IMG/VR virus record: IMGVR_UViG_3300042325_000598
Span: 1-27,745 of that record
Direction: 5' to 3' (one strand)
DNA: 27,745 nt
Origin: a virus
Positions 12,087 to 27,745 of the stretch are shown piece by piece. Below the pieces are notes generated by a model. It was not told the DNA's origin, did no database searches, and was given only the letters and a program-made list of their open reading frames with translations. Position 1 is the first letter of the stretch. Every line of letters begins with the position of its first letter. A program made the position numbers and the translations under genes.

Positions 12087-12094
12087 ATTATTTA

Positions 12095-13155: not shown

Positions 13156-14125
13156 AAGGGAATCCATCTGTTCCAGGAAAGCCTCCAAATGGCAGACTTT
13201 CTCCTTGTATTTTGGGGCTACTAATAAATCTTTTTTTACAAGCATTTAATTTTTTTGAGCATCCATCTTTTAGCCAATAAGTTGGATTTGATTCTGGATG
13301 ATTATTTAAATTACCGCCAGTAATGGAAACATACCAAGTTCTTAGCGGTCCTGAATAACTTTCTTTGTCATTAGGATTTTTATTGATAATTACTTTTGGA
13401 TTTTCTAAATACGCTATACCACTTTGATTATAAGTAGTAGTATCGATCCATTGATAATTAGAATTAGTCAAAAATCCATTTTCTGGAGAATCTGGAATTA
13501 CAGCATCTCCATTTGCATCTAAAAATGGATCTCCGTTTTCCATTTCTATTGGTTTATTAACATAATTACAGCCTGCGCCTCTATACATCCAATAACAATA
13601 CTTTGCTAATATTTGTCTATTAGTGATTTCAAAATTTTCTAAATCAAGCGGCGAAGTGAGTTCAAACTCTACATATACTTTATTTTCAGCCATTTTTTGG
13701 CCAATTAAAAATGTTTCGTTATTTATTTCTGCCGTAAAATCTTGAGGTCCAAAAGGATTGCCACCTTCGAAGTTAACATCATCTAAATATTTTAAGAATG
13801 TTCTTTTTCTGACTATTTTAGCATTTTTAAAATCAAAATTATTTTGAAGTAAACTGCTTATTAAATAATCTTTATTGGCAATTCTAATTTTTGGCCTTGA
13901 TAATTGACCATTGCCATTGATTTCAAAACCTTCACCCTCTACTGGCACGGGAATATATTCAATAGACTGCCAAGTTACATTGCCACCAAAAATAGATCCG
14001 CCATGAATTGGGATAAAAGCGGTAGGCTTATTAACGGTATCTGGGTATATCCTAAAGAATTCCAGCACAGCTGTCGGCTGGATATCCAACAAACTACTTG
14101 CTATTTTATTTTGACCTTGACCCAT
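13148..14125 (-). CDS. L: Minor tail protein, lambda gpL homologue (Fe-S cluster type)
   Basis: A 325-residue protein that begins the - strand tail-tip operon. Family motifs are SPLDLENFEITNRQILAKYC (158-177), YWMYRGAGCNY (178-188) and a C-terminal CSKKLNACKKRF (289-300). Cysteines 177 and 186 (9 apart) and 289 and 296 (7 apart) form the two pairs that hold the iron-sulphur cluster in lambda gpL relatives. An insert of about 100 residues separates the pairs, much more than in typical gpL. It includes a YNQSGIAYL...NNHPESNPTYW region resembling small aromatic carbohydrate-binding modules. The protein probably caps the distal tail tube and joins gpJ. The leader is A/T-rich with no SD. Confidence 0.85.
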   Translation of the reverse strand: MGQGQNKIASSLLDIQPTAVLEFFRIYPDTVNKPTAFIPIHGGSIFGGNVTWQSIEYIPVPVEGEGFEINGNGQLSRPKIRIANKDYLISSLLQNNFDFKNAKIVRKRTFLKYLDDVNFEGGNPFGPQDFTAEINNETFLIGQKMAENKVYVEFELTSPLDLENFEITNRQILAKYCYWMYRGAGCNYVNKPIEMENGDPFLDANGDAVIPDSPENGFLTNSNYQWIDTTTYNQSGIAYLENPKVIINKNPNDKESYSGPLRTWYVSITGGNLNNHPESNPTYWLKDGCSKKLNACKKRFISSPKIQGESLPFGGFPGTDGFPYG

Positions 14126-14162
14126 ATTTAAATTTACACTATTATTATTATAATAATCAAGG
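14126..14162. promoter_or_regulatory. Short divergent intergenic region with overlapping candidate -10 elements
   Basis: Only 37 bp separate the divergent starts of gpL and the next + strand gene. The centre holds the palindrome TTATTATAATAA, which contains TATAAT on the + strand (14149-14154) and on the - strand (14147-14152). No good -35 is found for either direction, so the promoters are either -10 driven or activator dependent, or lie further away. This is inference from position and motif. Confidence 0.3.
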
Positions 14163-14636
14163 ATGGTCGAAATTAAACAACTAATTACCCCTAATGATGA
14201 TTTTTATAATTATTTTTTACAGTACTGCATAAAATCAAAACCTTATGATTTTTGCGAGTTAAAATCTTTTAAATTGCGAAATGCAAAAATTAAAGAATAT
14301 TTTCATACTTTAATAAGTGACTCAATTATTTACACATCAGAAATAGATTATAAAATCTCAATATATGCTTTTTTTTCAGAAGAAAAAGATCATTTAATTT
14401 TAGAGTTTGCCATTGGTGATAATAAATTTAAACCGCAATCTTTAATAAAACATTTCCATGAAATTTTAATCTTAGCCCAAAAAACATTTGACAAAACCAG
14501 CATAAAGTCTACAATACAAAGGAAGTATAAAAAACAAAATTTCATAAACTGGTTAAAAAAATACGACAAAATTTGCGAAATAATAGAATTAGAAAATCAA
14601 ACAAAAATAATTTGGAAAAATGAAAGGTTCAATTAA
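14163..14636 (+). CDS. Hypothetical protein, 157 residues
   Basis: I do not recognise a family. The protein is Lys- and aromatic-rich with mixed alpha/beta character. The C-terminal KKQNFINWLKKYDKICEIIE resembles the end of GNAT-like proteins, but no acetyl-CoA motif is visible, so I do not call one. An AAGG abuts the ATG too closely to act as a normal SD. It overlaps the next gene by 17 bp, and the three small genes here probably form one transcript ending at the terminator near 15146-15178. Confidence 0.5.
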   Translation: MVEIKQLITPNDDFYNYFLQYCIKSKPYDFCELKSFKLRNAKIKEYFHTLISDSIIYTSEIDYKISIYAFFSEEKDHLILEFAIGDNKFKPQSLIKHFHEILILAQKTFDKTSIKSTIQRKYKKQNFINWLKKYDKICEIIELENQTKIIWKNERFN

Positions 14637-14913
14637 AATAATCGGCACAAACAGCATCACAAAACATTTTCAAGATCAAATTTTTGAAAACTGCACTCTA
14701 CAAAGCGAAGGAAAAGTCCATTTACTTTTTTTAAATAATAAAAAACATTTCTTGGATATTAAAGAAAGCCATTTTAATCATAATTTTGTATTAATTTTTG
14801 GGATTATTAGCGACGATGCTAAATTTGTTGGGAATATTGCTTTAGAGTTTTATCCAGAAAAAACTGCAAATTCAAACAGCCTTGCGGAAAAAAATCTTGA
14901 CTTTGTTGATTAA
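14620..14913 (+). CDS. Hypothetical protein, 97 residues
   Basis: A small alpha/beta protein with strands near the start (GSIKIIG), in the middle (KVHLLFLN) and near residues 57-62 (FVLIFG). No motif is recognised. The 17-bp overlap with the upstream gene suggests coupled translation. Confidence 0.45.
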   Translation: MKGSIKIIGTNSITKHFQDQIFENCTLQSEGKVHLLFLNNKKHFLDIKESHFNHNFVLIFGIISDDAKFVGNIALEFYPEKTANSNSLAEKNLDFVD

Positions 14914-14933
14914 AAACAGTAATCTATAAACAC

Positions 14934-15134
14934 ATGAGCGAAAAACAACATAATCTATATCGAGTCTATGACTACAAAAACAATTATATTCAAACCTACA
15001 CTAGCGAAATTTCAGAAGGATTTAGGTGGGCAAAGGATTGCGCGTCGAGAATGAACGGAAGAGTCGATGAGATTACAAAATCAGACACTGGGGAAACGGC
15101 ACTAACAATATTTAGTGTTTCCTTAAAAAAGTAA
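14934..15134 (+). CDS. Small hypothetical protein, 66 residues
   Basis: The layout is NLYRVYDYKNNYIQTYTS, a helix (GFRWAKDCASRMNGR) and a final strand (ETALTIFSVSL), a small beta-alpha-beta fold seen in many unnamed phage proteins. The leader TATAAACAC before ATG is close to TATAAACAT before the gene at 22538, so this may be a shared start context. It is the last gene before a strong terminator. Confidence 0.5.
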   Translation: MSEKQHNLYRVYDYKNNYIQTYTSEISEGFRWAKDCASRMNGRVDEITKSDTGETALTIFSVSLKK

Positions 15135-15145
15135 ATAATTTTTTT

Positions 15146-15178
15146 AAAAAAACCTCATATTTTTATGAGGTTTTTTTT
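15146..15178 (+). terminator. Rho-independent terminator
   Basis: The stem CCTCATA (15153-15159) / TATGAGG (15164-15170) has a TTTT loop and is extended by a 5' A-run pairing with a 3' T-run of eight. It lies just after the stop of the 66-residue gene. The symmetric A and T runs could let it act in both directions. It separates the small-gene block from the holin and fibre block. Confidence 0.9.
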
Positions 15179-15195
15179 GTGTTCACTGTGTAATT

Positions 15196-15540
15196 ATGTT
15201 TATCATGGAACCTGAGAAGTCTCTCTTAAAAGAATTTATAAATGGTGGTTGGATCATTCCTTTTATTGGAGCGTTAACAATGGCTACAAGATTAATTTCT
15301 AGTCCAGTAAAGTTGACAATTTTGCAACAATTAAAAAAAGTTTGTGCAGCTTCAATGTTATCGGGTGTGGCTTGGATAATCATTGACTCAGGTACGGTTA
15401 TTAATTCATTAGAGATTTCTTCGCTATATAAAGCCATAATTTATGGAACTATTGGCGTTGTTTCTCCAGAAATAATCAATGGAATTGTTAATTTAGCGAA
15501 AAAGTTTGAAAAGAGTCCAGAAAAGTTTGTCAATAAGTAA
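15196..15540 (+). CDS. Holin-like membrane protein
   Basis: A 114-residue protein (111 if the second ATG at 15205 is used). Three hydrophobic segments are visible: GWIIPFIGALTMATRLI (about 17-33), an AASMLSGVAWIIIDSG helix (about 51-66) and AIIYGTIGVVSPEIINGIV (about 81-99). The C-terminal tail is basic (KKFEKSPEKFVNK). The small size, three-helix layout and short N-terminal 'NGGW..P.iGAl' opening fit phage holins that open the inner membrane for the endolysin, here encoded at 22905. It follows a terminator, so it should have its own promoter, but none is clear. Confidence 0.7.
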   Translation: MFIMEPEKSLLKEFINGGWIIPFIGALTMATRLISSPVKLTILQQLKKVCAASMLSGVAWIIIDSGTVINSLEISSLYKAIIYGTIGVVSPEIINGIVNLAKKFEKSPEKFVNK

Positions 15541-15571
15541 ATAATTTAAACGATAAGTGTAAAAGCATTTG

Positions 15572-15907
15572 ATGAGTGCTGCGCTGTATAATATTTCCGT
15601 TGAGAAACGAGCTTGTTTTAGTTTGGGGTTGACATTTACCAATACAGATGGCTCTCCCTATGATCTTTCTGGGATAACTTTAACTGGTCAAATACGAAGA
15701 GATTTTGATGATGAATTACAAGCAGTATTTAATACTCAGATATTAAATACTGGAAGTGGGACAGCCATTATCTCTTTAACTTCTGACCAAACGCTACTTC
15801 TTGATGTCGCACCAAGCTCTTATGATCTTTTTGCCGATAGATTAGATGGTTGCCCAGACAAACTAATGTATGGATCTGTAATTAATATTGATAATAAAAC
15901 ACAATGA
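15572..15907 (+). CDS. Small structural protein, baseplate/fibre connector-like
   Basis: The ATG at 15572 is used instead of the TTG just before it, giving 111 residues. The pattern 'f..GltFtntDGsPyDLsGitltgQIRrdfdd', then a strand-turn-strand ending in 'GTAIISLTSDQT..L', is a beta-sandwich seen in many phage structural proteins encoded just before tail fibres (the BppU N-terminal type). Its stop overlaps the fibre start as ATGA, so it probably links the fibre to the virion. The function is inferred. Confidence 0.55.
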   Translation: MSAALYNISVEKRACFSLGLTFTNTDGSPYDLSGITLTGQIRRDFDDELQAVFNTQILNTGSGTAIISLTSDQTLLLDVAPSSYDLFADRLDGCPDKLMYGSVINIDNKTQ

Positions 15908-17418
15908 GTATCAATGTTCAAGTATCTCCCATTCCTAATATTAACATATTGGTTGGCAATAGTGGTAATTTATTAAATTTATCACCACAGGGTTATACTT
16001 TACACGCTAATACTCACATTAGTGGCGGCATTGATGCCATTGATCATAATTATCTTTTGGGCTTACAAGGTGGTCAAAGTAATCAATATTATCATTTAAC
16101 TTCGGGACAATATACTAATTTAAATAGTATAATCAATTCAACAGGAACTTATACTCTTCATTCAGAAACGGGCGCATTTTATGCTTCATCAAATCCATCT
16201 GGATTTATTACAGGAGTTAATAATATTGTTTATGATTTTGGAAATCAAAATATTTCTGGAATTAAAAATTTCTATTCTCGCCCAACAGTCAACGGCACTG
16301 GAATTTTATTAAGTGGTGACATAACAGCTCAACCAGAAGCTACGGGAGTAAGCGGATATTTACAAGCGCAAATTACTATTTTAAATAATGAAACAGGTTC
16401 TTACGCATTAAAATCAGAAACTGGAAACTTCATCACGAACAGCCAAACTGGTCAATTTTATTCATCTAATAATCCAAACCAATACGCGCCAACTGGTTAC
16501 GTTACAGGAATAAGCGGTGGGCTACAGCATCAAATAACCGCTCTTAATAATAAAACAGGCTCCTATTATCTAAACACTAACCCTTCGGGATATATTACTG
16601 GAGTCGATTTATCATTTTCTGGTAATTATTATACAAAAAATGAATCTGAATCTAGGTATGTAAATGCAACTGGAGCAGAAACAATCCTTGGGGATAAAAC
16701 ATTCCACGATAATGTTTACATTAATAATCTATATGTAACTGGTCTTGAAACAATAATCAACACAACCAACACAAACGTTTCAAGTAATTATATAATGCTG
16801 AATTTGACTGGTGGGGCAGTTGATGGTGGTATATTCTTCGTTACTGGATCTAGTTTGACTGGGATAAATGATTCTGGCGCAATTATTGGTTTTGACCACT
16901 CCGATAAATTTAAATTTGGAATTTCCACTAGAGCTAGTGATTTAAGTACTTTAGATACTATCGCTTCTTTAGAAGAGGTGACTACGATTAGTGGCGGATT
17001 ACAAACTCAAATCTCTACATTAAATAGCCAAACAGGAAGTTATGTTTTAAAAATAGAAACTGGTCAATTTTACGCTTCATCAAATCCCTCTGGTTTTATC
17101 ACTGGGGTTGATCTTTCTTCTTACGCAACTCAAGTTTATGTTACTGGTATCAGTGGGGATCTTCAAACCCAAATCACTAGTTTATATAATTCTACAGGTT
17201 CTTATGTTTTAAATACTCAAACTGGTCAGTTTTATGCTAGTTCAAACCCAAGCGGCTTTATCACAGGAATTAACAATCTTGTATATACAACTGGCGACCA
17301 AAGCATAAGTGGTAACATAAATATTAGTGGAAATTTAACAATAAGTGGGGTATATAATATATATCAACAGATAGAAAACGCAAAAATTCTAGCCATCGCA
17401 TATGCAATCGCTTTATAA
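15904..17418 (+). CDS. Repeat-containing tail fibre protein
   Basis: A 504-residue fibre. An N-terminal attachment region contains HANTHISGGID (34-44), a motif common in trimeric phage fibres. A module built around 'TGSYvL...TGqFYaSSNPSGfITG' recurs near residues 80-105, 164-193 (degenerate), 218-234, 378-402 and 431-455. It alternates with 'GISGgLQtQIt.L' helices at 148-160, 202-214, 362-373 and 415-427. Residues 295-345 (YIMLNLTGG, GGIFFVTG, GFDHSDKFKFGIST) form a distinct domain common in environmental phage fibres. The tail ends in a short hydrophobic helix. This reads as a trimeric beta-helix and coiled-coil shaft. It has no catalytic motif. Confidence 0.75.
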   Translation: MSINVQVSPIPNINILVGNSGNLLNLSPQGYTLHANTHISGGIDAIDHNYLLGLQGGQSNQYYHLTSGQYTNLNSIINSTGTYTLHSETGAFYASSNPSGFITGVNNIVYDFGNQNISGIKNFYSRPTVNGTGILLSGDITAQPEATGVSGYLQAQITILNNETGSYALKSETGNFITNSQTGQFYSSNNPNQYAPTGYVTGISGGLQHQITALNNKTGSYYLNTNPSGYITGVDLSFSGNYYTKNESESRYVNATGAETILGDKTFHDNVYINNLYVTGLETIINTTNTNVSSNYIMLNLTGGAVDGGIFFVTGSSLTGINDSGAIIGFDHSDKFKFGISTRASDLSTLDTIASLEEVTTISGGLQTQISTLNSQTGSYVLKIETGQFYASSNPSGFITGVDLSSYATQVYVTGISGDLQTQITSLYNSTGSYVLNTQTGQFYASSNPSGFITGINNLVYTTGDQSISGNINISGNLTISGVYNIYQQIENAKILAIAYAIAL

Positions 17419-17424
17419 TAAAAT

Positions 17425-18252
17425 ATGAAAAAATTAATTACAGGTTATAATTTTAACTCAGATTCAGGAATAGTTCAGCTTACTCAATATTCTGGATTAG
17501 TTTTAGAGAATTTTCTTTTAGTTACCAATGTTACTCAAAATAAAATTATTTATAATTTTGCAGATCCAACTGCTGGTGGATACATTACAGGCGTAGGAAA
17601 TAATTCTTTAAAATTTAATTACACCACTAGTGGCGTGATGACGAATACTGATAGACTTCAGATTTTCTATGACGCTCCAAACGAAAGAGTAGACTTAGCA
17701 TCTGGTTATCTTACTGGTTATCTTACTGGATCAGGAACGTCTACTGGTTTATATTCCGCAGTAGTTCCTATTGAAATTCAAAATGTTGGAGGAAGAGCGG
17801 TAGATATGGGCAGCGGTTTCTATCCTAATTATGGAAGAAATGACGCTGTATCATTTAATTTTGATAAAGATAATGGTGGCGCATTAGCATATCAGGCTGA
17901 TTTAGATAAGGATATAGATAGTGTTACTAATTTTGATATTGGCTATGGATCTGTGTCAAATTATATTACTGGGTTAATTAGTGGAACTTCTTCATCTGGA
18001 GTCGGCACTCAAGTGGTATCTGGCAATTCTAATAGAATTACATTGTTTGGTCAGAATTTTGGAACTTTTCCGTTGTATGTGAAATATGGTCTGGGCTGTA
18101 ATGCTAGTTCATTTAATTTTATGTTATATCCTGGAACAGCCGAATTCGACGCTAGAGGAGAAAAATTCTTTGATGATAGATATAAAGGAGATGTCTCCGT
18201 AAATACCATATCTGGATCAACTGGTCGTTATATTTTCTGGGAGGGAGTTTGA
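17425..18252 (+). CDS. Tail structural protein, 275 residues
   Basis: A beta-rich protein with the same TG/SG-terminated strands as the upstream fibre (SGYLTGYLTGSGTSTGLYSA). Segments such as GGRAVDMGSGFYPNYGRNDAVSFNFD are unfamiliar. No known domain is recognised, and a virion role is inferred from style and position. The ATG is preceded by TATAAT ending 5 bp upstream. The stop overlaps the next start as TGATG. Confidence 0.5.
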   Translation: MKKLITGYNFNSDSGIVQLTQYSGLVLENFLLVTNVTQNKIIYNFADPTAGGYITGVGNNSLKFNYTTSGVMTNTDRLQIFYDAPNERVDLASGYLTGYLTGSGTSTGLYSAVVPIEIQNVGGRAVDMGSGFYPNYGRNDAVSFNFDKDNGGALAYQADLDKDIDSVTNFDIGYGSVSNYITGLISGTSSSGVGTQVVSGNSNRITLFGQNFGTFPLYVKYGLGCNASSFNFMLYPGTAEFDARGEKFFDDRYKGDVSVNTISGSTGRYIFWEGV

Positions 18253-19175
18253 TGAAATTCTACGGAATACAAAACGAAGTAAAATCCTATATAAATCGCT
18301 TACAAAGCGAACAAGGTATCGTTGTGTCTTCTTCTGCAATAAAAGCTATTAATGATAGAGTAGAAAGTCTAAAGAAGTCTGGTGATTGGTCTAGGTTTAG
18401 CTTGGGCTTTAATGATGTAGATGGTGATGCATATCTTACTAGAGCAGGAGTCACCGATCCTTTAGGGAGATGTGAAGTGCTTTGGTTTACTAGAGGAATG
18501 AAGGCTCTAGATTTGTGGAATAATATGGTTTGTTGGCCTTTAAGAAACTATCAAAATGCTGGTACAGGCGCTACTGTTTTTAGTTTAGGGGGATTGGGCG
18601 TTTTTAACGGTACAGCTGTAAATAGCCCAACGTGGGGTATAAATGGATTTACATTTTCTAATCCAGGAGTTGGTACAAATACACAAAGAATTAATTTACA
18701 AACTGTATTAGGAACATCAGACATTAATAGTTTTGCTTATGGAGCAGCATCAATAAATTCAACTTCTAACTTTAATCGTATTTTCGATATTCAGAATGGA
18801 GTAAATACTACGGAAAGAAATCCGTTTTTAACTTTAGGTTTTAATAATCAGCTTAACTTTCAATTACCAAATAAGCCATCTGGTATTTCTGTATCACTTT
18901 CTAAAGTTATTTCTATTGATACTTTTAATTCTGTAATAGGTAGTAAAGTTGGTAATTTAGTTAGAGTAAGTTTAAATGCTTCATTAACAGATACAGCAAC
19001 TACAACAGCAGCAGGATTTGTTGTACCAGCAGCAACATCACAATCAGCTATAATACATTTCAACGGAACAATAGCAATATCATTACTAGGAAGATTCGAC
19101 GCTAATACAACCCTCATTACTACGGTTAATAATCTCTATAAATCAACCCTCGGAAACGGCTTAGGCTTACCATAA
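18252..19175 (+). CDS. LamG-type adhesin paralogue 1
   Basis: The ATG at 18252 is used, giving 307 residues; a TTG lies just upstream. The N-terminal helical region has 'YGIQNEVKSYINRL' and 'IKAINDRVESLKK'. An extra segment of about 35 residues precedes LDLWNNMVCWPLRNYQNAGT and FSLGGLGVFNGT. A beta-sandwich follows with VNSPTW and GVGTNTQRINL, and the protein ends KSTLGNGLGLP. It shares this architecture with the four genes that follow. A concanavalin/LamG-like jelly roll is inferred from the SLGGLG..NGT..N.P.W entry pattern. It probably binds a host-surface glycan or protein. Confidence 0.65.
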   Translation: MKFYGIQNEVKSYINRLQSEQGIVVSSSAIKAINDRVESLKKSGDWSRFSLGFNDVDGDAYLTRAGVTDPLGRCEVLWFTRGMKALDLWNNMVCWPLRNYQNAGTGATVFSLGGLGVFNGTAVNSPTWGINGFTFSNPGVGTNTQRINLQTVLGTSDINSFAYGAASINSTSNFNRIFDIQNGVNTTERNPFLTLGFNNQLNFQLPNKPSGISVSLSKVISIDTFNSVIGSKVGNLVRVSLNASLTDTATTTAAGFVVPAATSQSAIIHFNGTIAISLLGRFDANTTLITTVNNLYKSTLGNGLGLP

Positions 19176-19176
19176 T

Positions 19177-20007
19177 ATGGCAAAAAGATATTACAATTTA
19201 GAAAAAGAAACAAAAGTCTTCCTTAAGAGAATGGAAGAGACTAGGGGTGTATTGCCTGATGGTGCTGGCATTGCTAGAGTGAATGATTATATTGTAAAAA
19301 GAAAAGGTTTGGGATTATTTTTTGGCAATAGAGATAAATCTAGTTTGAATATAAATCTAACACAGAGAATTTCTGTTGCCAGCAATTCTAGCTTATTAGT
19401 TACTCCATCTTGGGAGATGGTAGCGTGGATATATCCTAAAGCATCTCTTAGCCTAAGCGAGACTATAAGTAAAGCTAGAAACGGTTTTACACAACTTGAT
19501 TTTTCTTTAAGAAGCTCATTTTCTACTTGCGCATTTAATGCCGCAACAGGTGCATCATACCTTAGCACACCCAATAAAACTTTCACGATTAATAGTTGGC
19601 AATTTTATAATTTTGGTAGAGACAGTTCAACCAGTAATATATTTTTATCTCGAAATCTGGATACACCTGTTACAGCAACTCAAGCGACACAAGCCTCTTC
19701 TAACTCAGCTTTTGTAATTGGTGACTGGTCTGATGGTGGAAGACCAGCAGACGCTATTTTTGATGGAGTTGGCAGATGGAGTCGATTATTAACTACTGAA
19801 CAAAGGTCTTTTTTATACAACACAGCAAGAGGAACTTCTTACTTAGAAATACTTGCTTACAGACCAGATATTTTAGTCGGATGCGTTAGCTATTGGCAGT
19901 TAAACGAGCCATCTGGCATAAGATATGATTGGCATGGAACAAATCATATGTCTCCGATCAACAATCCTATAAATTCAACTAACGGACTAATAGAAAAATT
20001 TTATTAA
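19177..20007 (+). CDS. LamG-type adhesin paralogue 2 (most divergent)
   Basis: A 276-residue protein. The N-terminal helices match the array (YYNLEKETKVFLKRM and ARVNDYIVKRKGLGLF), but the middle is more like a classic LamG_3 domain: SWEMVAWIYP, then TINSWQFYNFGRDSSTSNIFLS, then VGRWSRLLTTEQRSFLYNTARG. It lacks the CW.LRS..N.GTG segment and the GLGLP ending, and finishes instead with an SYWQLNEPSGIRYDWHGTNH motif. It may therefore bind a different ligand. It starts at TAA-T-ATG and ends overlapping the next start by 1 bp. Confidence 0.65.
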   Translation: MAKRYYNLEKETKVFLKRMEETRGVLPDGAGIARVNDYIVKRKGLGLFFGNRDKSSLNINLTQRISVASNSSLLVTPSWEMVAWIYPKASLSLSETISKARNGFTQLDFSLRSSFSTCAFNAATGASYLSTPNKTFTINSWQFYNFGRDSSTSNIFLSRNLDTPVTATQATQASSNSAFVIGDWSDGGRPADAIFDGVGRWSRLLTTEQRSFLYNTARGTSYLEILAYRPDILVGCVSYWQLNEPSGIRYDWHGTNHMSPINNPINSTNGLIEKFY

Positions 20008-20831
20008 TGGTAAATTCTAAATCATATGGTCTCCAAACTGAGACAAGACAATATCTAAGAAGATTATATGCTTATGGTAGAGAATTAAATTTGTCTGATG
20101 TGGCAGATATTGATAATTTTATTAAAGGATTAAAGCAATTAGGCTTATGGAGTAATACTGTCTGCTGGTTATTAAGATCTCAGCAAAATTTAGGAACAGG
20201 AACTATTGCATTAAGTTTAGGAGGATTGGGAAATTATAACGGCACATTAGTTAATACAGTAACATGGGGATCAAACGGTGTACAATCTGGTGGTGTATCT
20301 CTAACTAGCAGGATAAACATTTCAACTGATATTAGAAGAGTAATAAATTACGGAACTAGTATTTTCGGTGTCGTCTCTAATAATAATGATGATAACTATT
20401 ATATTTTTCAAGTTGCAGATAGTAATGACGGTAATCCTACCTACCCCTCTATTGCAGTAAACCAAGCAAGTGGTTTAGGTGTTGTTCCTGTCGTCACACG
20501 AAATAGCGTTAGGTATTTTCAAGCTACAAGAGGGGGAGCATATTTAGCGGGGTTCTCTTCTGTAGCTGGTGTATTAAGAACAAATTCACAAGCTAATTTT
20601 AGAAATGGTACAGTAATATCAAATGAAATTAATCTAGGAGTAATCAATCCAGATTCGCAAATAACAGTGAATGCTGCTTTTATTGCGGGTAGAGGTAATG
20701 GAGCAATAACAGGTGGAGGTAATACTTCTCCAATTTCTCTAGTATCTACAGTAATTTTTACCAATGAGCAAATTTCAAATTTACATTTACTATACAAAAC
20801 AACAATCGGGAAAGGATTAGGATTACCTTAA
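20007..20831 (+). CDS. LamG-type adhesin paralogue 3
   Basis: A 274-residue protein with the full array pattern: SYGLQTETRQYLRRLYAY, IDNFIKGLKQLGLWSNTVCW, LRSQQNLGTGTIALSLGGLG, NYNGTLVNTVTWGSNG, a beta-sandwich, and the ending TTIGKGLGLP. Its N-terminal DNA is visibly similar to that of the next gene (20110-20156 against 20950-20997), a sign of fairly recent duplication. It starts at TTAATG, overlapping the previous stop by 1 bp. Confidence 0.65.
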   Translation: MVNSKSYGLQTETRQYLRRLYAYGRELNLSDVADIDNFIKGLKQLGLWSNTVCWLLRSQQNLGTGTIALSLGGLGNYNGTLVNTVTWGSNGVQSGGVSLTSRINISTDIRRVINYGTSIFGVVSNNNDDNYYIFQVADSNDGNPTYPSIAVNQASGLGVVPVVTRNSVRYFQATRGGAYLAGFSSVAGVLRTNSQANFRNGTVISNEINLGVINPDSQITVNAAFIAGRGNGAITGGGNTSPISLVSTVIFTNEQISNLHLLYKTTIGKGLGLP

Positions 20832-20832
20832 T

Positions 20833-21651
20833 ATGCCAATCACACGTAAATATACTTTCGACATAGATACTAAACGTTATCTCAATAGAGTTAATACTTA
20901 TAGACAATTAAATGGTCTAGATAAGATAACTAATGCTGATGCTGTAGATATTGATAATTTCATTATAGGGTTGAAGGGTTTAGGGTTATGGACTGATTCA
21001 TATATTTGGTTATTAATGAGCCAACATAATGTAGCTGCTGGAGTATCTTTAGTTGGGCTGAATGATAATACTCCAAATGGGACTCTAGTTAATTCACCCA
21101 CATGGAGCACATCAGGTATGGGATTTTTAAATTCTTTAGCAAAAAGAATAGTTATACCTGTAACTTTTACATTTGGGGATATATTTACAATTTTTGCATC
21201 TGCTAAATTAACAAATACAACTGCTCCAAATTTGAGCATTTTAGGGGTTGGTAATGGTAGAGGTGGGGTAATAGCCGTAGCATCAAATGGTTCAACTTTG
21301 CTGAGAAATGCTTCATGGGATGTTAATACGTTTTCGCCAGGAGCGGTAACTAGTAATGCAATAGTATCTACTGATAATTTCACCAGTACAATAACTGCAA
21401 ATTCCAGCTCTTCAGTTCATTATGCCAATACCACTAAAGTTAGTACATTAAATGGCGATTATAGAATCTCAAATGCTGCAACTATACCAACTATAGGGGC
21501 AAATTATACTGCTGGAGGAAATTACTCTGGTCCATTTAACGGTAATATACATATAGCATTTATGCTCAAAAGATCTATTACAGATTCAGCTCAGTCTAGT
21601 CTATATAGATTATACAAAGAAACAGTCGGAAAAACATTAGGATTACCATAA
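20833..21651 (+). CDS. LamG-type adhesin paralogue 4
   Basis: A 272-residue protein closely related in its N-terminus to paralogue 3 (KYTFDIDTKRYLNRVNTYRQ, VDIDNFIIGLKGLGLWTD). The central segment is looser (LLMSQHNVAAGVSLVGLNDN, then GTLVNSPTW), and the end is ETVGKTLGLP. The region between about residues 90 and 250 differs strongly from its neighbours, as expected if the ligand-facing sandwich diversifies while the ends stay fixed. It starts at TAA-T-ATG. Confidence 0.65.
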   Translation: MPITRKYTFDIDTKRYLNRVNTYRQLNGLDKITNADAVDIDNFIIGLKGLGLWTDSYIWLLMSQHNVAAGVSLVGLNDNTPNGTLVNSPTWSTSGMGFLNSLAKRIVIPVTFTFGDIFTIFASAKLTNTTAPNLSILGVGNGRGGVIAVASNGSTLLRNASWDVNTFSPGAVTSNAIVSTDNFTSTITANSSSSVHYANTTKVSTLNGDYRISNAATIPTIGANYTAGGNYSGPFNGNIHIAFMLKRSITDSAQSSLYRLYKETVGKTLGLP

Positions 21652-21652
21652 T

Positions 21653-22507
21653 ATGCCAAGAACAAGAACATTTGGATTAGATAAAGACACTATAGCATTT
21701 GCCGCTAGAGTAAAAGCTGGTAGCGGTAGAACTATATTACCCGAAAACTTAAAACAAATTAATAAATTTGTAATTGGAACAAAGAAACTAGGATTATGGA
21801 ATTCTATGGTTTGTTGGCCAATGAGAAGTATTCATAATGCTGGTACTGGATCTACTGTTTATAGTCTAGGTGGATTAGGCACTTATAATGGTACTATGAC
21901 AAATAGCCCTGTATGGAATAGCGATGGGTCTGGTATATTCTTTGATCAAGTAGTAAACTATAAAAGAATAGATATTCCTGTAAGAACAACAGGATGGACA
22001 CAAGCTTCTCTATGTGGAGTTTTTAGATCAACAAATATACTTCCATTTACTTTATTAGTTACATTAGATAATAGTGGTACGACGAATGATGCTACAGCCA
22101 AGTTAGCTTTGTCAATATTTCAACCCAATGGACAAACACTTATAAGAAGTAGCGCTCTTACCCCATCTTTTGCTCAAAAATATGCAAGAATAACACCAGG
22201 TCCAACACCGTCAGGTTATAATTATTATTTTGGTCAAACTAATAATATATATGACCCAGTTAATGGAAACTATTTTGTTCAGCAAAATAACTCCACGGGT
22301 AATACCCAAGAAGGTACAGGTGTATTACCATATCTTGCAACAGGCACAAATAGTTTCTTATTCAATACATATAACACAATAGCAACTAGAGCTGATACAG
22401 GAGCATTCGCCGTAGTATTCCAAAGGGCTTTAGGATTAAATATCTCAAACTTATTTAAACAACTATTCAGACAAACTATAGGTACAGGGTTAAATTTACC
22501 ATATTGA
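21653..22507 (+). CDS. LamG-type adhesin paralogue 5
   Basis: A 284-residue protein, last of the array: RTFGLDKDTIAFAARV, INKFVIGTKKLGLWNSMVCW, MRSIHNAGTGSTVYSLGGLG, TYNGTMTNSPVW, and an ending RQTIGTGLNLPY in place of GLGLP. Its CW segment is closest in DNA to paralogue 1 (21805-21890 against 18520-18605), so the order of duplication is not a simple chain. No catalytic residues are seen. Confidence 0.65.
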   Translation: MPRTRTFGLDKDTIAFAARVKAGSGRTILPENLKQINKFVIGTKKLGLWNSMVCWPMRSIHNAGTGSTVYSLGGLGTYNGTMTNSPVWNSDGSGIFFDQVVNYKRIDIPVRTTGWTQASLCGVFRSTNILPFTLLVTLDNSGTTNDATAKLALSIFQPNGQTLIRSSALTPSFAQKYARITPGPTPSGYNYYFGQTNNIYDPVNGNYFVQQNNSTGNTQEGTGVLPYLATGTNSFLFNTYNTIATRADTGAFAVVFQRALGLNISNLFKQLFRQTIGTGLNLPY

Positions 22508-22537
22508 AATATATAATAAATAAACTAATATAAACAT

Positions 22538-22897
22538 ATGAACTTCTCAACAGAATTTAAAACATTTGCTTTTCCAGAAGCACTAATAGAACAGCTCCCA
22601 CTTCTCAATGAACAATTTGGAGAAGATGCAACTGATGGATTATTAACAGTCAAAACGATTGCTTGTGGTTGGGATGATAGTGAACATACAACCCTTAGAG
22701 CTTTAAGATTTCCAGAAACAGCTTCTCTTACAGATCTTACTGATGGAAGAAAAGCTTATACAGCCCTTTGGTCGTTAAAATTACTTGATGTTTTTAATCA
22801 GGGATTATTCCCAGATGTTCAAGAATTGACTACAGAAGAAATGCAAGCGTTGTTGCCTGTATACGAGGATGAGGTTCAATCAGAAGATTTTAACTAA
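22538..22897 (+). CDS. Small acidic protein, possible fibre-assembly chaperone
   Basis: A 119-residue acidic protein. The C-terminus is notably acidic (ELTTEEMQALLPVYEDEVQSEDFN), and a helical SLTDLTDGRKAYTALWSLKLLDVF segment lies in the middle. No family is recognised. A small acidic protein just after a run of fibre and adhesin genes has the position of tail-fibre assembly chaperones, but that is inference from context only. The leader TATAAACAT before the ATG resembles that of the gene at 14934. Confidence 0.4.
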   Translation: MNFSTEFKTFAFPEALIEQLPLLNEQFGEDATDGLLTVKTIACGWDDSEHTTLRALRFPETASLTDLTDGRKAYTALWSLKLLDVFNQGLFPDVQELTTEEMQALLPVYEDEVQSEDFN

Positions 22898-22904
22898 TAA
22901 AAAT

Positions 22905-23672
22905 ATGGAATTTGCAAATAAAAAAGAATTAATAACCAAAGTCCAAAAAGCTTTGAATTTAAATGCTGATGGAATCGATGGCCCAAACACATGGAAACAA
23001 ATACTTATTAAAATAACTGGCGAGCAACCTGCCGAAATTCCTGTCGTTAATTCAAATAATGAATCCAACCCTTTATCTGCGAAATCATTTGCGCTTATTC
23101 TTAAATATGAAGTTGGCGGCGGCGCAAGTTATTATAATAAATGCTTAAAACATCCTTGTTATCCTGGAGGAGAAAGCGGCGTAACAATCGGCATAGGCTA
23201 CGATTTAGGCTATAACACATCATATCAATTCTCAGAAGATTGGAAGGGAATTTTGGATACCCAATCTTATATTCGATTGCTTCAACACCTTGGAAAGAAA
23301 TCTTCCAATGCGAAAGCCGCTATTTCAAGCGTAAAAGATATTGAAGTATCTTGGGATGCCGCAGAAATTGTTTTTAAAAAGAATACATTGCCGCGCTTTA
23401 TAAACGAAACAAAAAAAGCTTTTCCTAATTCCGACAAACTCCACCCAGATGCTTTTGGGGCGTTAGTCAGTCTTGTTTTTAATAGAGGCGCATCGGTTTC
23501 TGGTCCGAGTAGGATTGAAATGCTTAATATCAGAAATTTAATTGATTCAAAAAATTACGAAGCCATCGCCAACGAAGTCCGCAAGATGAAAAGGCTGTGG
23601 ATTGGCAAGGGTCTTGATGGTCTTTTGGTAAGAAGAGATGATGAAGCCTCATTAATTGCTTCGTGCGTTTAA
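22905..23672 (+). CDS. Endolysin: peptidoglycan-binding domain plus lysozyme-like domain
   Basis: The ATG at 22905 is preferred to 22869, which would overlap the previous gene by 29 bp and add an unneeded N-terminus; it gives 255 residues. Residues 5-37 (KKELITKVQKALNLNADGID then GPNTWKQILIKI) fit a short PG_binding_1 repeat. From residue 58 a lysozyme-like domain follows, with Glu69 (LKYEVGG) as the likely catalytic acid. The motif GVTIGIGYDLGY (92-103) has Thr94 at the position of the catalytic Thr in T4-type and pesticin-type lysozymes. The C-terminal RRDDEASLI matches the closing helix of such enzymes. It should cut murein once the holin opens the membrane. Confidence 0.8.
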   Translation: MEFANKKELITKVQKALNLNADGIDGPNTWKQILIKITGEQPAEIPVVNSNNESNPLSAKSFALILKYEVGGGASYYNKCLKHPCYPGGESGVTIGIGYDLGYNTSYQFSEDWKGILDTQSYIRLLQHLGKKSSNAKAAISSVKDIEVSWDAAEIVFKKNTLPRFINETKKAFPNSDKLHPDAFGALVSLVFNRGASVSGPSRIEMLNIRNLIDSKNYEAIANEVRKMKRLWIGKGLDGLLVRRDDEASLIASCV

Positions 23673-23683
23673 AATCTTCAAAA

Positions 23684-23736
23684 AGATCTTGACTGGTGAT
23701 CTATTTATTGGTAATCTGTTTTTGCGTTGAACGCAA
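23684..23736 (+). promoter_or_regulatory. Sigma70-like promoter with inverted repeat and leader hairpin
   Basis: TTGACT (23689-23694), a 17-bp spacer and TAATCT (23712-23717) form a good promoter after the endolysin. AGATC (23684-23688) and GATCT (23698-23702) form an inverted repeat flanking the -35, a possible operator. Just downstream, TTGCGT-TGA-ACGCAA (23722-23736) is a perfect hairpin at or near the 5' end of the transcript. It should drive the MazG-Mom-ThyX-HNH operon starting at 23766. Confidence 0.6.
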
Positions 23737-23765
23737 TAAATAAAAAAATAATTAACTAAATAATA

Positions 23766-24059
23766 ATGAATTCGTTTAAAATTAAGATCTCTGTAGGTGA
23801 CATTTTCGATTATGTTGTTGGAAACAGCAACTATGATCCAATTGAACGCTGCATTGATCCTACTCGTTTTGAAGTCTTTGATTTCGGCATTTATGACAAT
23901 CAAAACAAAAAAACTCTAGAGCAAGATGACAAATTTAAATTCTTCTGTTCCGAAGTAAGTAAATTGCGTTCCATCGCTAAAGAAATGGACCAGAAGGAGA
24001 TTCAATCTATTTGCGGCGAACTTGAATCTATCGCGCCTACTGAAATTAATATCGGATAA
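23766..24059 (+). CDS. Hypothetical protein, 97 residues
   Basis: First gene of the nucleotide/DNA-modification operon. The N-terminus is FKIKISVGDIFDYVVGN, followed by an acidic alpha/beta core and a C-terminal helix (KEIQSICGELESI). I do not recognise a family. It ends 3 bp before the MazG-like gene, so a role with that enzyme is possible but not shown. Confidence 0.5.
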   Translation: MNSFKIKISVGDIFDYVVGNSNYDPIERCIDPTRFEVFDFGIYDNQNKKTLEQDDKFKFFCSEVSKLRSIAKEMDQKEIQSICGELESIAPTEINIG

Positions 24060-24062
24060 TTT

Positions 24063-24398
24063 ATGGAATACAAAGAACTAAAAGAAAAGATTGTGCAGTG
24101 GGGTAAGGATAGGAATATTTTTGAATTTTCTACTCCAATTAAACAGCTGCATAAAACTCAAGAAGAGTTGGATGAAACAATGAACGCTCTTGTTGCTTTT
24201 GCAGACGCAAAAACAGAAAAAGCAAAAGAAAAAGCAATGGAAGAAGTAATTGACGGTATTGGTGACATGGGAGTTACTCTCATGATGCTTTGCCACAAAG
24301 TCGATGTCGATTTCGTTGAATGTCTTGCCAGTGCATACGATGTCATTAAGGATCGTAAAGGCAAAATGATTAATGGTTTTTTCGTAAAAGAATTGTGA
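24063..24398 (+). CDS. MazG-like nucleotide pyrophosphohydrolase
   Basis: A 111-residue single-domain MazG-type protein. The metal-binding motifs are EExxE at Glu34-Glu38 (QEELDE) and ExxD at Glu61-Asp64 (EVIDGIGD), each on a helix, as in the all-alpha NTP pyrophosphatase superfamily. Such enzymes hydrolyse (d)NTPs to NMPs and PPi. In phages they are thought to adjust nucleotide pools or remove unwanted nucleotides. Here it sits with a base-modification enzyme and ThyX, which favours a role in dNTP quality or supply. It overlaps the next gene as GTGA. Confidence 0.8.
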   Translation: MEYKELKEKIVQWGKDRNIFEFSTPIKQLHKTQEELDETMNALVAFADAKTEKAKEKAMEEVIDGIGDMGVTLMMLCHKVDVDFVECLASAYDVIKDRKGKMINGFFVKEL

Positions 24399-25072
24399 CA
24401 GTAAAAAGGATTGATAAATCAATAGCTGATTTAATCATATCAAATAAACATTACTCCAAGAGGCTTGGTATTTTCTGGGAAGGCTTCGGTCTTTTTAATG
24501 ATAACAAACTTATTGGAGTATGTTGCTTTGGTCAACCGTCAGCACCTATCCAAAAACACGCATTTAAAGATAGGAATTTTAGACTTTATGAATTGACTAG
24601 ATTAGTCGTAGATAATGATGTAAAAAACGCCGCATCATTTTTGATTAGTCAATCTACTAAAATGCTTAAAGAGCGGTTCTGTGCGATTATAAGCTATGCA
24701 GATTCGGCTCATGGACATAGTGGTATAGTTTATCAAGCAACAAATTGGCTATATACAGGCGCAACAGTATCTCATGACAGTCTTTATTTGATTGATGGAG
24801 TGGCAACCCACCCAATGACCCTTAGAGATAAGCTAGGCATTACTAAGCCAGCTATTTGGGCCAAAGAAAATAATATACAAAAGATAAAACCTATGCCAAA
24901 GCACAGATATTTCTTTTTTGTTGGCTCAAAGAAGCAAAAGAAACAAATGAAAGCTTCATTGAACTATGAAATTATTTCGAATTACCCAAAGTCTGATAAA
25001 AAATATTATAATAATGGAGATTTGTCTTGTTCTTTTTATGAAAATCAATACAATTTAAAAACTAATGAGTAA
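24395..25072 (+). CDS. Mom-like DNA-modification enzyme (GNAT fold)
   Basis: A 225-residue protein starting at GTG within a GTGA overlap. Motifs typical of the phage Mu Mom family are present: NKHYSKR (17-23), a strand with GVCCFG (41-46), RLYELTRLVVDN (63-74), SYADSAHGHSG (100-110) and IVYQATNWLYTG (111-122). Mu Mom converts adenine in DNA to a carbamoylmethyl derivative that blocks host restriction enzymes. The family is established by these motifs, but the modification made here is not known. The C-terminal 50 residues are Lys-rich. It overlaps thyX by 8 bp, so the modification and dTMP supply genes are translated together. Confidence 0.8.
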   Translation: MTVKRIDKSIADLIISNKHYSKRLGIFWEGFGLFNDNKLIGVCCFGQPSAPIQKHAFKDRNFRLYELTRLVVDNDVKNAASFLISQSTKMLKERFCAIISYADSAHGHSGIVYQATNWLYTGATVSHDSLYLIDGVATHPMTLRDKLGITKPAIWAKENNIQKIKPMPKHRYFFFVGSKKQKKQMKASLNYEIISNYPKSDKKYYNNGDLSCSFYENQYNLKTNE

Positions 25073-25742
25073 TAAAGTAAAACTAGTCGGCTATACAATT
25101 CCTGATAAAGATTATTTTGCTGGAACAGGAGTGGAAACCATTTCCGATCTAATCACATTTTGCGGAAGAGTGTCTAATCCTTCTAATCAAATGAATATGG
25201 ATACGGCAGATAAGTTGATTAATTATCTTCTTAAACACAAACATTTTTCACCATTTGAAATGTGTAACGCTGTTCTTGAAATCGAAACGACAAGAGATAT
25301 TGCTCGCCAAATTCTTCGCCACAGATCATTTGCTTTTCAAGAATTTTCTCAGCGTTATGCAGATCCTACTTCTGTATTGCCAATGGTAGTCCGCGAAGCC
25401 CGTCTTCAAGATACAAAGAATCGTCAAAATTCAGTAGAAACAAATAATGAAGTTCTTTCTTATCGTTGGGAAGTTAGACAAAAACAATTAATTGAAAAAG
25501 CAAAAGAAACTTATGATTGGGCTATTGAAAATGGGATAGCAAAAGAAGTAGCTCGATCAGTTCTTCCAGAAGGAAATATGATGAGTCGTTTATATATGAA
25601 CGGAACTATTCGTAGTTGGATTCATTATCTTGAAGTTCGCACTGGCAATGGGACTCAGAAAGAGCATATTGAAGTTGCAAAACAATGCGCTATAGCTTTA
25701 TCTAAAATCTTCCCAATGTTTTTGGGGCAAGTTATTGATTAA
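25065..25742 (+). CDS. thyX: Flavin-dependent thymidylate synthase
   Basis: A 225-residue ThyX of normal length. The signature RHRSFAFQEFSQRY (85-98) aligns to RHRxxSxNxxSxR, with Ala at the first Ser and Gln at the Asn. Downstream, ARSVLPEGNMMSRLYMNG and SWIHYLEVRTGNGTQKEH match the family's second half. It makes dTMP from dUMP using FAD, NADPH and methylene-tetrahydrofolate, supporting phage DNA synthesis in an AT-rich genome. The stop overlaps the HNH start as TAATG. Confidence 0.93.
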   Translation: MSNKVKLVGYTIPDKDYFAGTGVETISDLITFCGRVSNPSNQMNMDTADKLINYLLKHKHFSPFEMCNAVLEIETTRDIARQILRHRSFAFQEFSQRYADPTSVLPMVVREARLQDTKNRQNSVETNNEVLSYRWEVRQKQLIEKAKETYDWAIENGIAKEVARSVLPEGNMMSRLYMNGTIRSWIHYLEVRTGNGTQKEHIEVAKQCAIALSKIFPMFLGQVID

Positions 25743-26305
25743 TGAACATCGTAGATTGCAATACTAGAACCACACTCTTACTTAATAACGCTTGGCAACC
25801 TATCACTGCCATCACAGCAAAGGCTGCTTTCGCGCATCTATTAAGTCAAAATGTCACCGCTTTAGATAAAAACAATAATTTGTTTGATTCTATAGAGAAG
25901 TGGAATGATTATGCGGAGTTCCATGAAGATCAGCCCGTTCTTCGTAGCGCAAAACGCTCTTGGCCAATTCCAACAATTATTATTGTAACCAGTAAATTTT
26001 TTAAAAAACCCAAAAAGAAAAAACTATCTTTGGCGGAACTAAGCAGAATTCATGATTCTATTTGCCAGTATTGTTTAAAGAAATTTAAAATCGCAGATCT
26101 TACTATTGATCACATCAAACCAAAAAGTAAGGGCGGAACTGATGAACACGAAAATAGGACTTTGGCTTGTCTTGACTGCAATCAAAAGAAGTCCGATCAT
26201 TCTCCATTTTTTAATATTAAAAATGAAATAGTAAAAGCTCCAGTAATTCCTAATCTTTTTCTTCAGGTGTCCAAAATTAGAAAAGAGTGGAAAAGTTTTA
26301 TATAA
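25742..26305 (+). CDS. HNH endonuclease
   Basis: A 187-residue stand-alone HNH protein. The N-terminal 'TRTTLLLNNAWQPITAITAK' leads a domain common in free HNH nucleases. The nuclease core has CQYC (Cys108, Cys111), then LTIDHIKPKSKGG with Asp123 and His124, Asn138, and CLDCN (Cys143, Cys146, Asn147), giving a zinc-bound beta-beta-alpha-metal site. No RuvC or IscB-type domain is present. It could be a homing nuclease or work with the adjacent Mom-like gene against unmodified DNA; neither role is shown by the sequence. Confidence 0.85.
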   Translation: MNIVDCNTRTTLLLNNAWQPITAITAKAAFAHLLSQNVTALDKNNNLFDSIEKWNDYAEFHEDQPVLRSAKRSWPIPTIIIVTSKFFKKPKKKKLSLAELSRIHDSICQYCLKKFKIADLTIDHIKPKSKGGTDEHENRTLACLDCNQKKSDHSPFFNIKNEIVKAPVIPNLFLQVSKIRKEWKSFI

Positions 26306-26311
26306 TTTAAT

Positions 26312-26581
26312 ATGGGAATTTTAGCTTCTTTAATTAAATCATTGGAACTTTTTTTAAACTTAAAAAACAAATCATTTTATTATGAAATCAGAATCAAATC
26401 AAAAAACAGACAAAAAGAAATACTTGACGAAATTGAAAAGCTGCGTAATGATGGGGGCAGCTCTTCTGCTGATCGCGCAGACCTCCTGCGTATGGAACTC
26501 AAACGAGAACGTGAAGAACTGGAAAATTTATCAACCTTCTACTTTAAAGCTGCAAAAGAACGTCCCGATTCAAACCCTTGA
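26312..26581 (+). CDS. Coiled-coil protein overlapping a lipoprotein gene, possible inner spanin subunit
   Basis: An 89-residue protein. A short hydrophobic or amphipathic N-terminus (GILASLIKSLELFLNL) is followed by a long charged helix (RIKSKNRQKEILDEIEKLRN and RMELKREREELENLSTFYF), likely a coiled coil. The lipoprotein gene starts inside it in the +1 frame. That layout, membrane-proximal coiled coil plus embedded lipoprotein, recalls Rz/Rz1 spanins. The N-terminal membrane segment is weaker than in a standard i-spanin, so this is tentative. TATAAT ends 5 bp before the ATG and overlaps the preceding stop. Confidence 0.5.
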   Translation: MGILASLIKSLELFLNLKNKSFYYEIRIKSKNRQKEILDEIEKLRNDGGSSSADRADLLRMELKREREELENLSTFYFKAAKERPDSNP

Positions 26582-26666
26582 TGGAGTTTATACTCCACAA
26601 GTAAATGAAATCTGGCATTCTGATGATAGATTCCGAAAAGTAGAGAATGAATTAAATCTAAGATAA
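26382..26666 (+). CDS. Small lipoprotein-like protein, possible outer spanin (Rz1-like)
   Basis: A 94-residue protein beginning inside the preceding gene in a different frame, with a 200-bp overlap. A basic N-terminus (KKKYLTKLK) leads to a hydrophobic segment at 21-35 ending in a lipobox-like AQTSC, with Cys36 as the likely lipidated residue; Gln at -3 is not ideal. The mature part is short, with VPIQTLDGVYTPQVNEIWHS and a charged C-terminus. The out-of-frame overlap and lipoprotein signal fit an o-spanin that joins the inner and outer membranes at lysis. Its stop lies 3 bp before the promoter at 26670. Confidence 0.55.
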   Translation: MKSESNQKTDKKKYLTKLKSCVMMGAALLLIAQTSCVWNSNENVKNWKIYQPSTLKLQKNVPIQTLDGVYTPQVNEIWHSDDRFRKVENELNLR

Positions 26667-26669
26667 AAG

Positions 26670-26698
26670 TTGACATAAGCGAAAACATAAGTTATTAT
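26670..26698 (+). promoter_or_regulatory. Consensus-like sigma70 promoter for the large RNA
   Basis: TTGACA (26670-26675), a 17-bp spacer and TATTAT (26693-26698) make the best promoter match in the window. The predicted start near 26705 is not followed by a credible ORF but by a long structured region. AGATAA (26661-26666) and TTATCT (26695-26700) form an inverted repeat enclosing it, which may be chance. Confidence 0.7.
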
Positions 26699-26704
26699 CT
26701 AAAT

Positions 26705-27745
26705 AGATCGATTGAGTAGGAGTTACTCAGACTCAAAAGATCCTCTCTAGTCAACGATTAGAGATAAAATACTGTTCTTTAATAAATAAAAATTTTAAAA
26801 ATTTTATTCCCTTAATGGGACAAGGGGCTTCATGCCCCGTGCGGTAAGCGAACGAGAATCTTGAAGCGATTGTGGTGGGTAGAGATTTGAATGCGACAAC
26901 GCCTACCATTAAAGGAATATTAATTTTTGCAATGGAAATCGGTGAGTTTTCACATACGCAGTGGAGCAAATACTTGAGATTCCGTGTGGGTCAATATCCA
27001 TACATTGTAGATACCAAAAAGCCATACGAAGGTTATGGGCTTCCTTCTCCAGCTATAAGGATTCATATAGCTAGTGCCAGTCCTGCATAACGCATTGAGA
27101 GTGCATACTCTATGGACAAATTTTCAATGGCTAGAGGGAATCTGGCAAGTTACTAGTATAACAGGATGCAATTCCTGAGATTCCACAAACACTCTAGCCA
27201 CCTTTTTTATCTGTCGAGAATATCTACACACAGCTGTGAAGACCTATGCTGGGAATCCGTCTGAGGTGATGCAAATCGCTACAAAGTGGCCCTTCCGTGA
27301 ACCAGCGAAGATGCTGTCTATGCGCGAGGGGCATAGGCGTTAAGGTCTGACAGATAAACTAATTTTGCGGTCATTGAGGGGTATTCGTCAACTAAGACGT
27401 TTGTGCAAGGTAGTCAACATAAAACGCACGATTCAGTGATGGGTTAATGCAGTTGATAGAAATCGAGTCTTTCGAGGCGATTATTCGGTTGGGAACACAT
27501 TGCACGATATAGCGACCTGAGCCGTAAAACCATTTCCAATTGCCTGACTGCAAGCGGCTATACCTGATAAAGTAGTGCGCAGTAGGTCAGGAATTGGTCA
27601 ATTTTATGAGAGGATCATACTGAGATCGCTAGGCCCATAGTCTAGAGAGGAGGTTAAATTCCTTCCCCTCATAATTCGTATTCATACGCGATAAAGTATG
27701 ACGCTGCTAAGAGTGTATCCTTAGATAGTCCCAGCCCTGGATGAG
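26705..27745 (+). ncRNA. Large structured non-coding RNA, right end beyond window; candidate GOLLD/ROOL-type giant RNA
   Basis: More than 1 kb without a credible ORF and less A/T-rich than its neighbours, behind a strong promoter. Stems read directly include: 26824-26828/26834-26838 (GGGGC/GCCCC); 27051-27057/27066-27072 (7 bp); 27098-27102/27107-27111; 27128-27136/27192-27200 (9 bp) enclosing 27137-27143/27178-27184 (7 bp) and 27162-27166/27173-27177; 27207-27215/27349-27357 (9 bp) stacked with 27240-27245/27343-27348; 27386-27389/27396-27399; 27536-27541 plus 27543-27548 paired with 27586-27597 (12 bp, one bulge); and a tRNA-like cloverleaf at 27605-27673. Size, phage context and the tRNA-like element resemble giant ornate RNAs, but I cannot match a consensus by eye. 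A shorter transcript ending near 27208 is also possible. Confidence 0.65.
27605..27673 (+). ncRNA. tRNA-like cloverleaf within the large RNA, anticodon-loop CAT
   Basis: The acceptor stem is 27606-27612 with 27666-27672 (6 of 7 pairs). The D-like arm is GATC 27613-27616/27624-27627. The anticodon-like stem 27629-27633/27641-27645 has a 7-nt loop CCCATAG, placing CAT at 34-36. The T-like arm 27649-27653/27661-27665 has a 7-nt loop TTAAATT. Against a real tRNA: no two-base linker at 8-9, no GG in the D loop, C at position 33 and no TTC in the T loop. I read it as a tRNA mimic or degenerate tRNA, not a working tRNA-Met. Confidence 0.5.

Follow-up and report, generated by a model that had tools for sequence, protein, structure and literature searches.

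Five adjacent genes with common ends and different middles

What do five adjacent genes with common ends and strongly different middles do for a phage, and how did their middles come to differ? This question is raised by IMG/VR record IMGVR_UViG_3300042325_000598, of which the 27,745 nucleotides analysed are called here the window. Five open reading frames of 272-308 codons lie side by side on its plus strand (18249-22507), in positions designated slots A to E. Slot A (18249-19175, ATG at 18252; 308 aa) consists of an N-terminal segment with a slot-A insertion, an entry motif, a head and a GLGLP end. Slot B (19177-20007; 276 aa) is a divergent member, with ~45 N-terminal residues common to the others and a Laminin_G_3-like body. 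Slot C (20007-20831; 274 aa) is predicted to comprise a two-helix N-terminal hairpin followed by a concanavalin-A-like jelly roll. Slot D (20833-21651; 272 aa) is a paralogue with a degenerate entry motif, whose head is related to single-copy phage genes, and slot E (21653-22507; 284 aa) is a paralogue with a GLNLPY end, whose head is common to the phage contigs L100, L101 and L003 and is replaced in the other arrays.

An earlier note on this DNA had described all five genes as paralogues. This holds for A, C, D and E, which are mutually related (BLASTP E 8e-18 to 6e-31; z of 16 to 29 for full-length local scores, relative to 200 shuffles), but for B only in the first ~45 residues, to which its likeness is confined (z 5.5 to 10.5 for the N-terminal part, 1.6 to 5.5 for the full length). 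At the sequence level, B is only distantly related to the other four, and yet the common N-terminal region that had been reported is borne out even for this protein. The strong difference of the middles was likewise confirmed, as no clear likeness was detected when those of the five window proteins were compared pairwise (z -0.6 to 2.9). The entry motif GTG..SLGGLG.(Y/F)NGT..N..W, claimed for four proteins, is complete in A, C and E and reduced to NGT..N..W in D. Similarly, three GLGLP ends and one GLNLPY end had been listed; A and C end in GLGLP and E in GLNLPY, but D ends in TLGLP. Neither the entry motif nor the shared ending is found in B.

The shared protein ends are also visible as DNA repeats on the plus strand: a 134-nt entry repeat in A (18495-18628), C (20127-20260) and E (21776-21909), and a 50-nt junction repeat at A/B (19137-19186), C/D (20793-20842) and D/E (21613-21662). 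In this region, promoter-like sites are no more frequent than chance would give (39 against 39.6 expected), and terminator-like sites, mostly within genes, are more frequent (10 against 3.9 expected).

Predicted fold of the array proteins

The slot C protein was modelled with AF2 from a 28-row alignment (mean pLDDT 75, with weak loops; pTM 0.81). The model begins with helices at residues 11-22 and 29-44, continues as a beta-sandwich (~50 to ~247) and closes with a helix (253-265). In it, the conserved entry provides the first strands and the conserved end the last helix, and the two would form one face beside the hairpin. Comparison with concanavalin-A-like jelly rolls gave a VIA Z of up to 16.9 (2.7 A over 196 residues), and Foldseek returned many phage ConA/LamG-like matches, including cyanophage virion structural proteins. 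The structure prediction and the search for LamG folds that had been proposed earlier thus yielded a ConA-like jelly roll for C, and this modelled fold would place the protein in the concanavalin A-like lectin/glucanase (LamG) superfamily. In Pfam, four of the 28 aligned members match PF13385 Laminin_G_3 at E<=0.01 (best 6e-4). Among the window proteins, scanning of A, C, D and E gave no Laminin_G_3 match, and the body of B is borderline, falling just below the cut-off (E 4.5e-6; 27.3 bits against 27.6). Probably, A, B, D and E also have a hairpin, an entry, a jelly-roll head and a C-terminal helix, like C.

Among the PDB structures that best match the head are clostridial neurotoxin binding domains, at ~10% sequence identity. 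A toxin relationship of the heads is not claimed, as these matches are taken to reflect only the common ConA-like jelly roll.

Glucanases have the jelly-roll fold as well, and sialidases and arabinanases contain it in accessory lectin domains; this would fit with an enzymatic role of the paralogues (as glycoside hydrolases or sialidase-like enzymes) instead of a binding one. We consider such a role very improbable: no glycosidase family was matched in Pfam, what was matched are binding modules or ConA folds of a generic kind, and the heads are too variable to share a conserved active site. A binding function of lectin-type heads is therefore preferred.

Order and copy number in related phages

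IMG/VR was scanned with C, A, the family alignment and F, the gene that follows the array, as queries. Ten other uncultured phage contigs (L101, L003, L108, L100, L099, L102, L105, L106, L107 and L110) carry the array in identical order with F behind, and the gene order A-(B)-C-D-E-F is thus common to 11/11 contigs, including the window. In all of them the slot ORFs are intact and their spacing is tight or overlapping. The idea that copies are gained and lost proved mostly wrong, number and order being nearly fixed in the 11 contigs with a single loss of B. This loss is found in L105 (5458-6336), where slot B is deleted apart from its ten initial codons (MAKRYYNTEK), which are joined in frame to C. 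About half of the arrays have an extra gene of 155-323 aa between A and the upstream gene g1 (L108:2796-3767, L100:482-961, L099:3332-3817, L105:3956-4510 and L110:3335-3802).

Most other family members are single-copy. When loci were counted with 2 kb flanks, using a family profile that does not count B, 49 one-copy, 4 two-copy and 8 four-copy loci were obtained. Cultured relatives of C, E, F and one single-copy relative were sought among 50,697 phage records and none was found, and a search of bacterial and archaeal genome contigs with two single-copy relatives found no relative.

Replacement of heads between conserved DNA blocks

Comparison of the window with its closest relative, L006/L099, located the switches at the DNA level. 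The conserved DNA consists of the gene junctions and, in C, D and E, of the first ~70-80 codons. On the plus strand, the blocks conserved with L006 cover A in full with the first ~50 nt of B (18252-19226; 99.0%), the end of B and the first ~73 codons of C (20000-20226; 80%), the end of C and the first ~70 codons of D (20791-21042; 85%), the first ~80 codons of E (21647-21894; 92%) and, finally, the end of E with F (22496-22869; 94%). Between these blocks lie the replaced heads of slots B to E. The switch points of C, D and E lie in or just past the conserved entry, and the match of B ends ~50 nt into the gene. The variation of the array is block replacement, and dense A-site changes, as in the targets of diversity-generating retroelements, are not the pattern. 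A reverse transcriptase was sought among the PHROG-scanned proteins of the window, an incomplete contig, and no match was obtained.

N-termini keep their slot while heads move

In order to follow the parts separately across the 11 arrays, 51 proteins were each divided into four parts, the N-terminal segment, the entry, the head and the C-terminal 25 residues; three C/E proteins in which the exact motif is missing were included manually for the comparison of head pairs. When N-terminal segments are compared between phages, the nearest neighbour belongs to the same slot in 51/51 cases, with mean normalised scores of 0.78 within slots and 0.24 between them. For the heads, this is the case in only 27/51, and the corresponding scores are 0.10 and 0.06. 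In the N-terminal tree, each of the five slots is one supported clade (UFBoot 97-99, SH-aLRT 84-97), the single-copy outgroup is separate and there are 5 label changes, the minimum; the tree was built on 56 columns and speaks to the slots themselves, not to the relations between them. The head tree of A, C, D and E requires 22 label changes; its branches with good support by themselves demand a minimum of 3 for A, 5 for C, 3 for D and 2 for E.

Between phages, 25 head pairs of the same slot and seven of different slots are related at E<1e-3. The seven cross-slot pairs (E 1e-17 to 1e-73) always associate C with A or D, and the heads of B and E paired solely within their own slot in this search. 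In one case at the DNA level, C of L003 matches A of L100 with 85% identity over 544 nt, ungapped, from codon 71 of C to the stop, and no DNA match is detectable 5' of this stretch. Recombination among the copies, as proposed earlier, is strongly supported by these results: heads have been replaced between phages and moved across slots, the N-termini never. The slot fidelity of the N-terminus could in part be an old divergence, since crossovers need DNA homology, which is present mainly in the entry and the ends.

Within one phage, related heads are about as rare (2/106 pairs) as between phages (32/1325). The two pairs are slots C and D of L101 (1785-3456; E 4e-51), whose likeness suggests a recent copy within the array, and A and C of L099. 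Together with the cross-slot homology, these two pairs would fit with the copies being mainly a recombination reservoir, in which one slot is displayed at a time, or slots differ in expression, and the others store heads. Such a silent store predicts decay, inversion elements or loss, of which only one loss was seen; the intact ORFs of the 11 contigs, their tight or overlapping spacing and the conserved slot-specific N-termini also speak against it, and we hold it to be quite improbable. The preferred reading is that of five slots with exchangeable heads.

Neighbouring genes and location on the virion

Two plus-strand genes precede the array. The first, g0 (15904-17418), encodes a repeat-rich, fibre-like protein of 504 aa that matches PF18338 BppL_N (E 2.7e-7) and whose N-terminal 123 aa are 92% identical to a protein of L181, a siphovirus-type contig. 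The second, g1 (17425-18252; 275 aa), lies directly upstream of A, resembles virion structural proteins (phrog_5838, E 1.1e-10) and is found upstream of the array in every array contig reaching that far. A lysozyme follows downstream of the window array.

Since the array borders head genes in T4-type relatives, namely those of the head maturation protease, the major head protein and the portal, decoration of the capsid has to be considered, by which the five proteins, like outer head proteins, would hold virions near glycans (mucus, cell envelopes). In addition, a head-decoration PHROG is matched by a short stretch of the L108 gene that lies between g1 and A. In the window, however, the array stands behind lambda-type tail genes and the fibre-like g0, with g1 directly before it and the lysozyme next; genes preceding the array in L110 and L106 have matches among tail fibre families; and head swapping fits receptor-binding proteins. 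A capsid location is therefore improbable, and a position at the tail is favoured.

F (22538-22897, plus strand; 119 aa) is a conserved gene that follows both the array and many single-copy family genes, which it commonly overlaps. Searches against Pfam, PHROGs and solved-structure profiles gave nothing interpretable, and its model, a small alpha/beta fold (pLDDT 86), reached an uninformative best Z of 4.1 in the fold search. F may be an assembly factor or adaptor; with no interpretable profile, PHROG or fold match, a chaperone role remains a guess.

Elsewhere in the window, a large protein with a glycosyltransferase match (1331-3265; phrog_2170, E 4.5e-18) lies beside the tail genes, and a Mom-like DNA modification protein (24395-25072; phrog_1384, E 1.6e-50) adjoins thymidylate synthase and an HNH endonuclease. 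The last ~1.1 kb (26660-27745) has no ORFs, with 18-33 stops per frame and a G+C of 0.44 against ~0.33 around it, and searches there gave no tRNA and no Rfam match. A 25-nt pattern from this stretch recurs in four phage contigs with tRNA genes (L204-L207), of which L204 and L206 are 77-95% identical to it in pieces, with inserts between. The ORF-free stretch of the window is a candidate for a long structured RNA, with a fold z of only -2.3. Just before the ORF-free, RNA-like stretch of L206 lies a group I intron-like match (605-860; 49.9 bits) and, after it, 18 nt that weakly match the tmRNA 3' end.

Phage type and integrity of the window

The window had been assigned to a siphovirus. This label suits its tail genes, which are lambda-type (gpJ, I, K and L types; 7839-14125, minus strand), but not the array itself: a T4-type portal is present in 8/10 of the other array contigs, one of which also has a contractile sheath, and none of the ten has a gpJ-type tail. 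Judged from these gene contents, the array module seems to cross phage types. Either it was recently transferred between phage types, as A is 99% identical in DNA to its counterpart in a contig that has a T4-type portal, or a chimeric join lies within the window at ~16.2-17.5 kb. A comparable transfer has been reported for Alteromonas phages (PMC10579305).

That the lambda-type tail and the array were joined in a metagenomic chimera, the array itself being real but belonging to T4-type phages only, is suggested by the near-identity of A, by the window lysozyme, 67% identical to one in the same T4-type-portal contig, and by the lack of another contig in which a gpJ-type tail and the array are joined; when g1 was used to seek a second such contig, only short g1 matches without the array were obtained. 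On the other side, L181 independently backs the window order from the tail genes into g0 (88% DNA identity over 11858-16249), and g0, g1 and A are closely consecutive, intact ORFs. Furthermore, the tetranucleotide usage of the right flank (22870-26600) resembles that of the tail half (0.70) and of L180 (0.68) more than that of the T4-type contig (0.11). This likeness favours a real transfer, although not decisively, and we regard a chimera as unlikely.

Proposed model

Taken together, the array is probably a five-slot receptor-binding cassette at the fibre end of the tail, with slot-specific docking ends and exchangeable lectin-type heads. Each gene would give a small protein made of a two-helix hairpin, a fixed entry forming the first jelly-roll strands, a variable ConA/LamG-like head and a fixed C-terminal helix. 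Each protein is most likely anchored by its slot-specific N-terminal segment, at a site of its own on the fibre or on adjacent array proteins, and docking of the five at separate sites would lead to a mixed assembly. The heads probably bind differing cell-surface glycans or proteins. A slot would change its specificity when recombination at the conserved entry and junction sequences brings in a new head, whose source may be the same slot, a different one or a single-copy relative from another phage; homologous heads are present in all three of these sources. F might help to fold or mount the array proteins. By such exchange the phage can probably change or widen what it attaches to. Only tentatively do we advance the fuller picture of a mixed five-part lectin assembly, with its own docking site for each protein and five independently exchangeable heads, in a cassette that moves between T4-type and lambda-type tails.

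Read from sequence in 11 natural phage contigs, attachment specificity would then be modular by numbered slot: docking ends stay and heads travel. This points to a host-recognition cassette common to phages with different tail types. The array also offers a compact set of heads, about 125-180 residues each, for tests of ligand specificity.

Comparison with known systems

Related in design are the single-copy genes followed by F in other uncultured phages (for example L116, L113 and L129), which have the N-terminal motif, the entry, the GLGLP end and F as in the array, but one copy instead of five. More broadly, LamG/concanavalin-A-like proteins of cyanophages and other tailed phages in BFVD, some annotated as virion structural, have the same predicted fold as C, with a sequence identity of 10-17% among the matches listed.

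In the Alteromonas phages A5, V22 and P24, a host-recognition module of fibre and chaperone is common to morphologically distinct phages (PMC10579305). The array would be similar in being shared across differing phage types. The Alteromonas module, however, has one fibre and a known chaperone, whereas the array has five small paralogues and an F without a recognised chaperone match.

The closest parallel is the branched tailspike complex TSP1-TSP4 of Ackermannviridae, encoded by adjacent genes and hetero-assembled at the tail (PMC8432352, PMC11414711, PMC8825819). Its N-termini are conserved by slot, and a conserved motif marks where TSP1, TSP3 and TSP4 exchange receptor-binding modules (PMC8432352); the complex tolerates exchanged spikes (PMC11414711). 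The array resembles it in its adjacent genes, its slot-specific N-termini and its variable modules of receptor-binding type exchanged between slots. The Ackermannviridae proteins are large tailspikes with XD/TD domains, whereas those of the array have ~270-310 aa, a predicted hairpin and ConA-like jelly roll, five slots and uncultured phage hosts; XD/TD domains (gp10-like) and beta-helix heads were sought in the five proteins with Pfam and PHROG, without a match. Since no homology was detected and fold and size differ, the array works like the Ackermannviridae tailspike cluster but is not a member of it. As fold, size, slot number and phage groups all differ from this known example, the same slot design appears to have arisen more than once.
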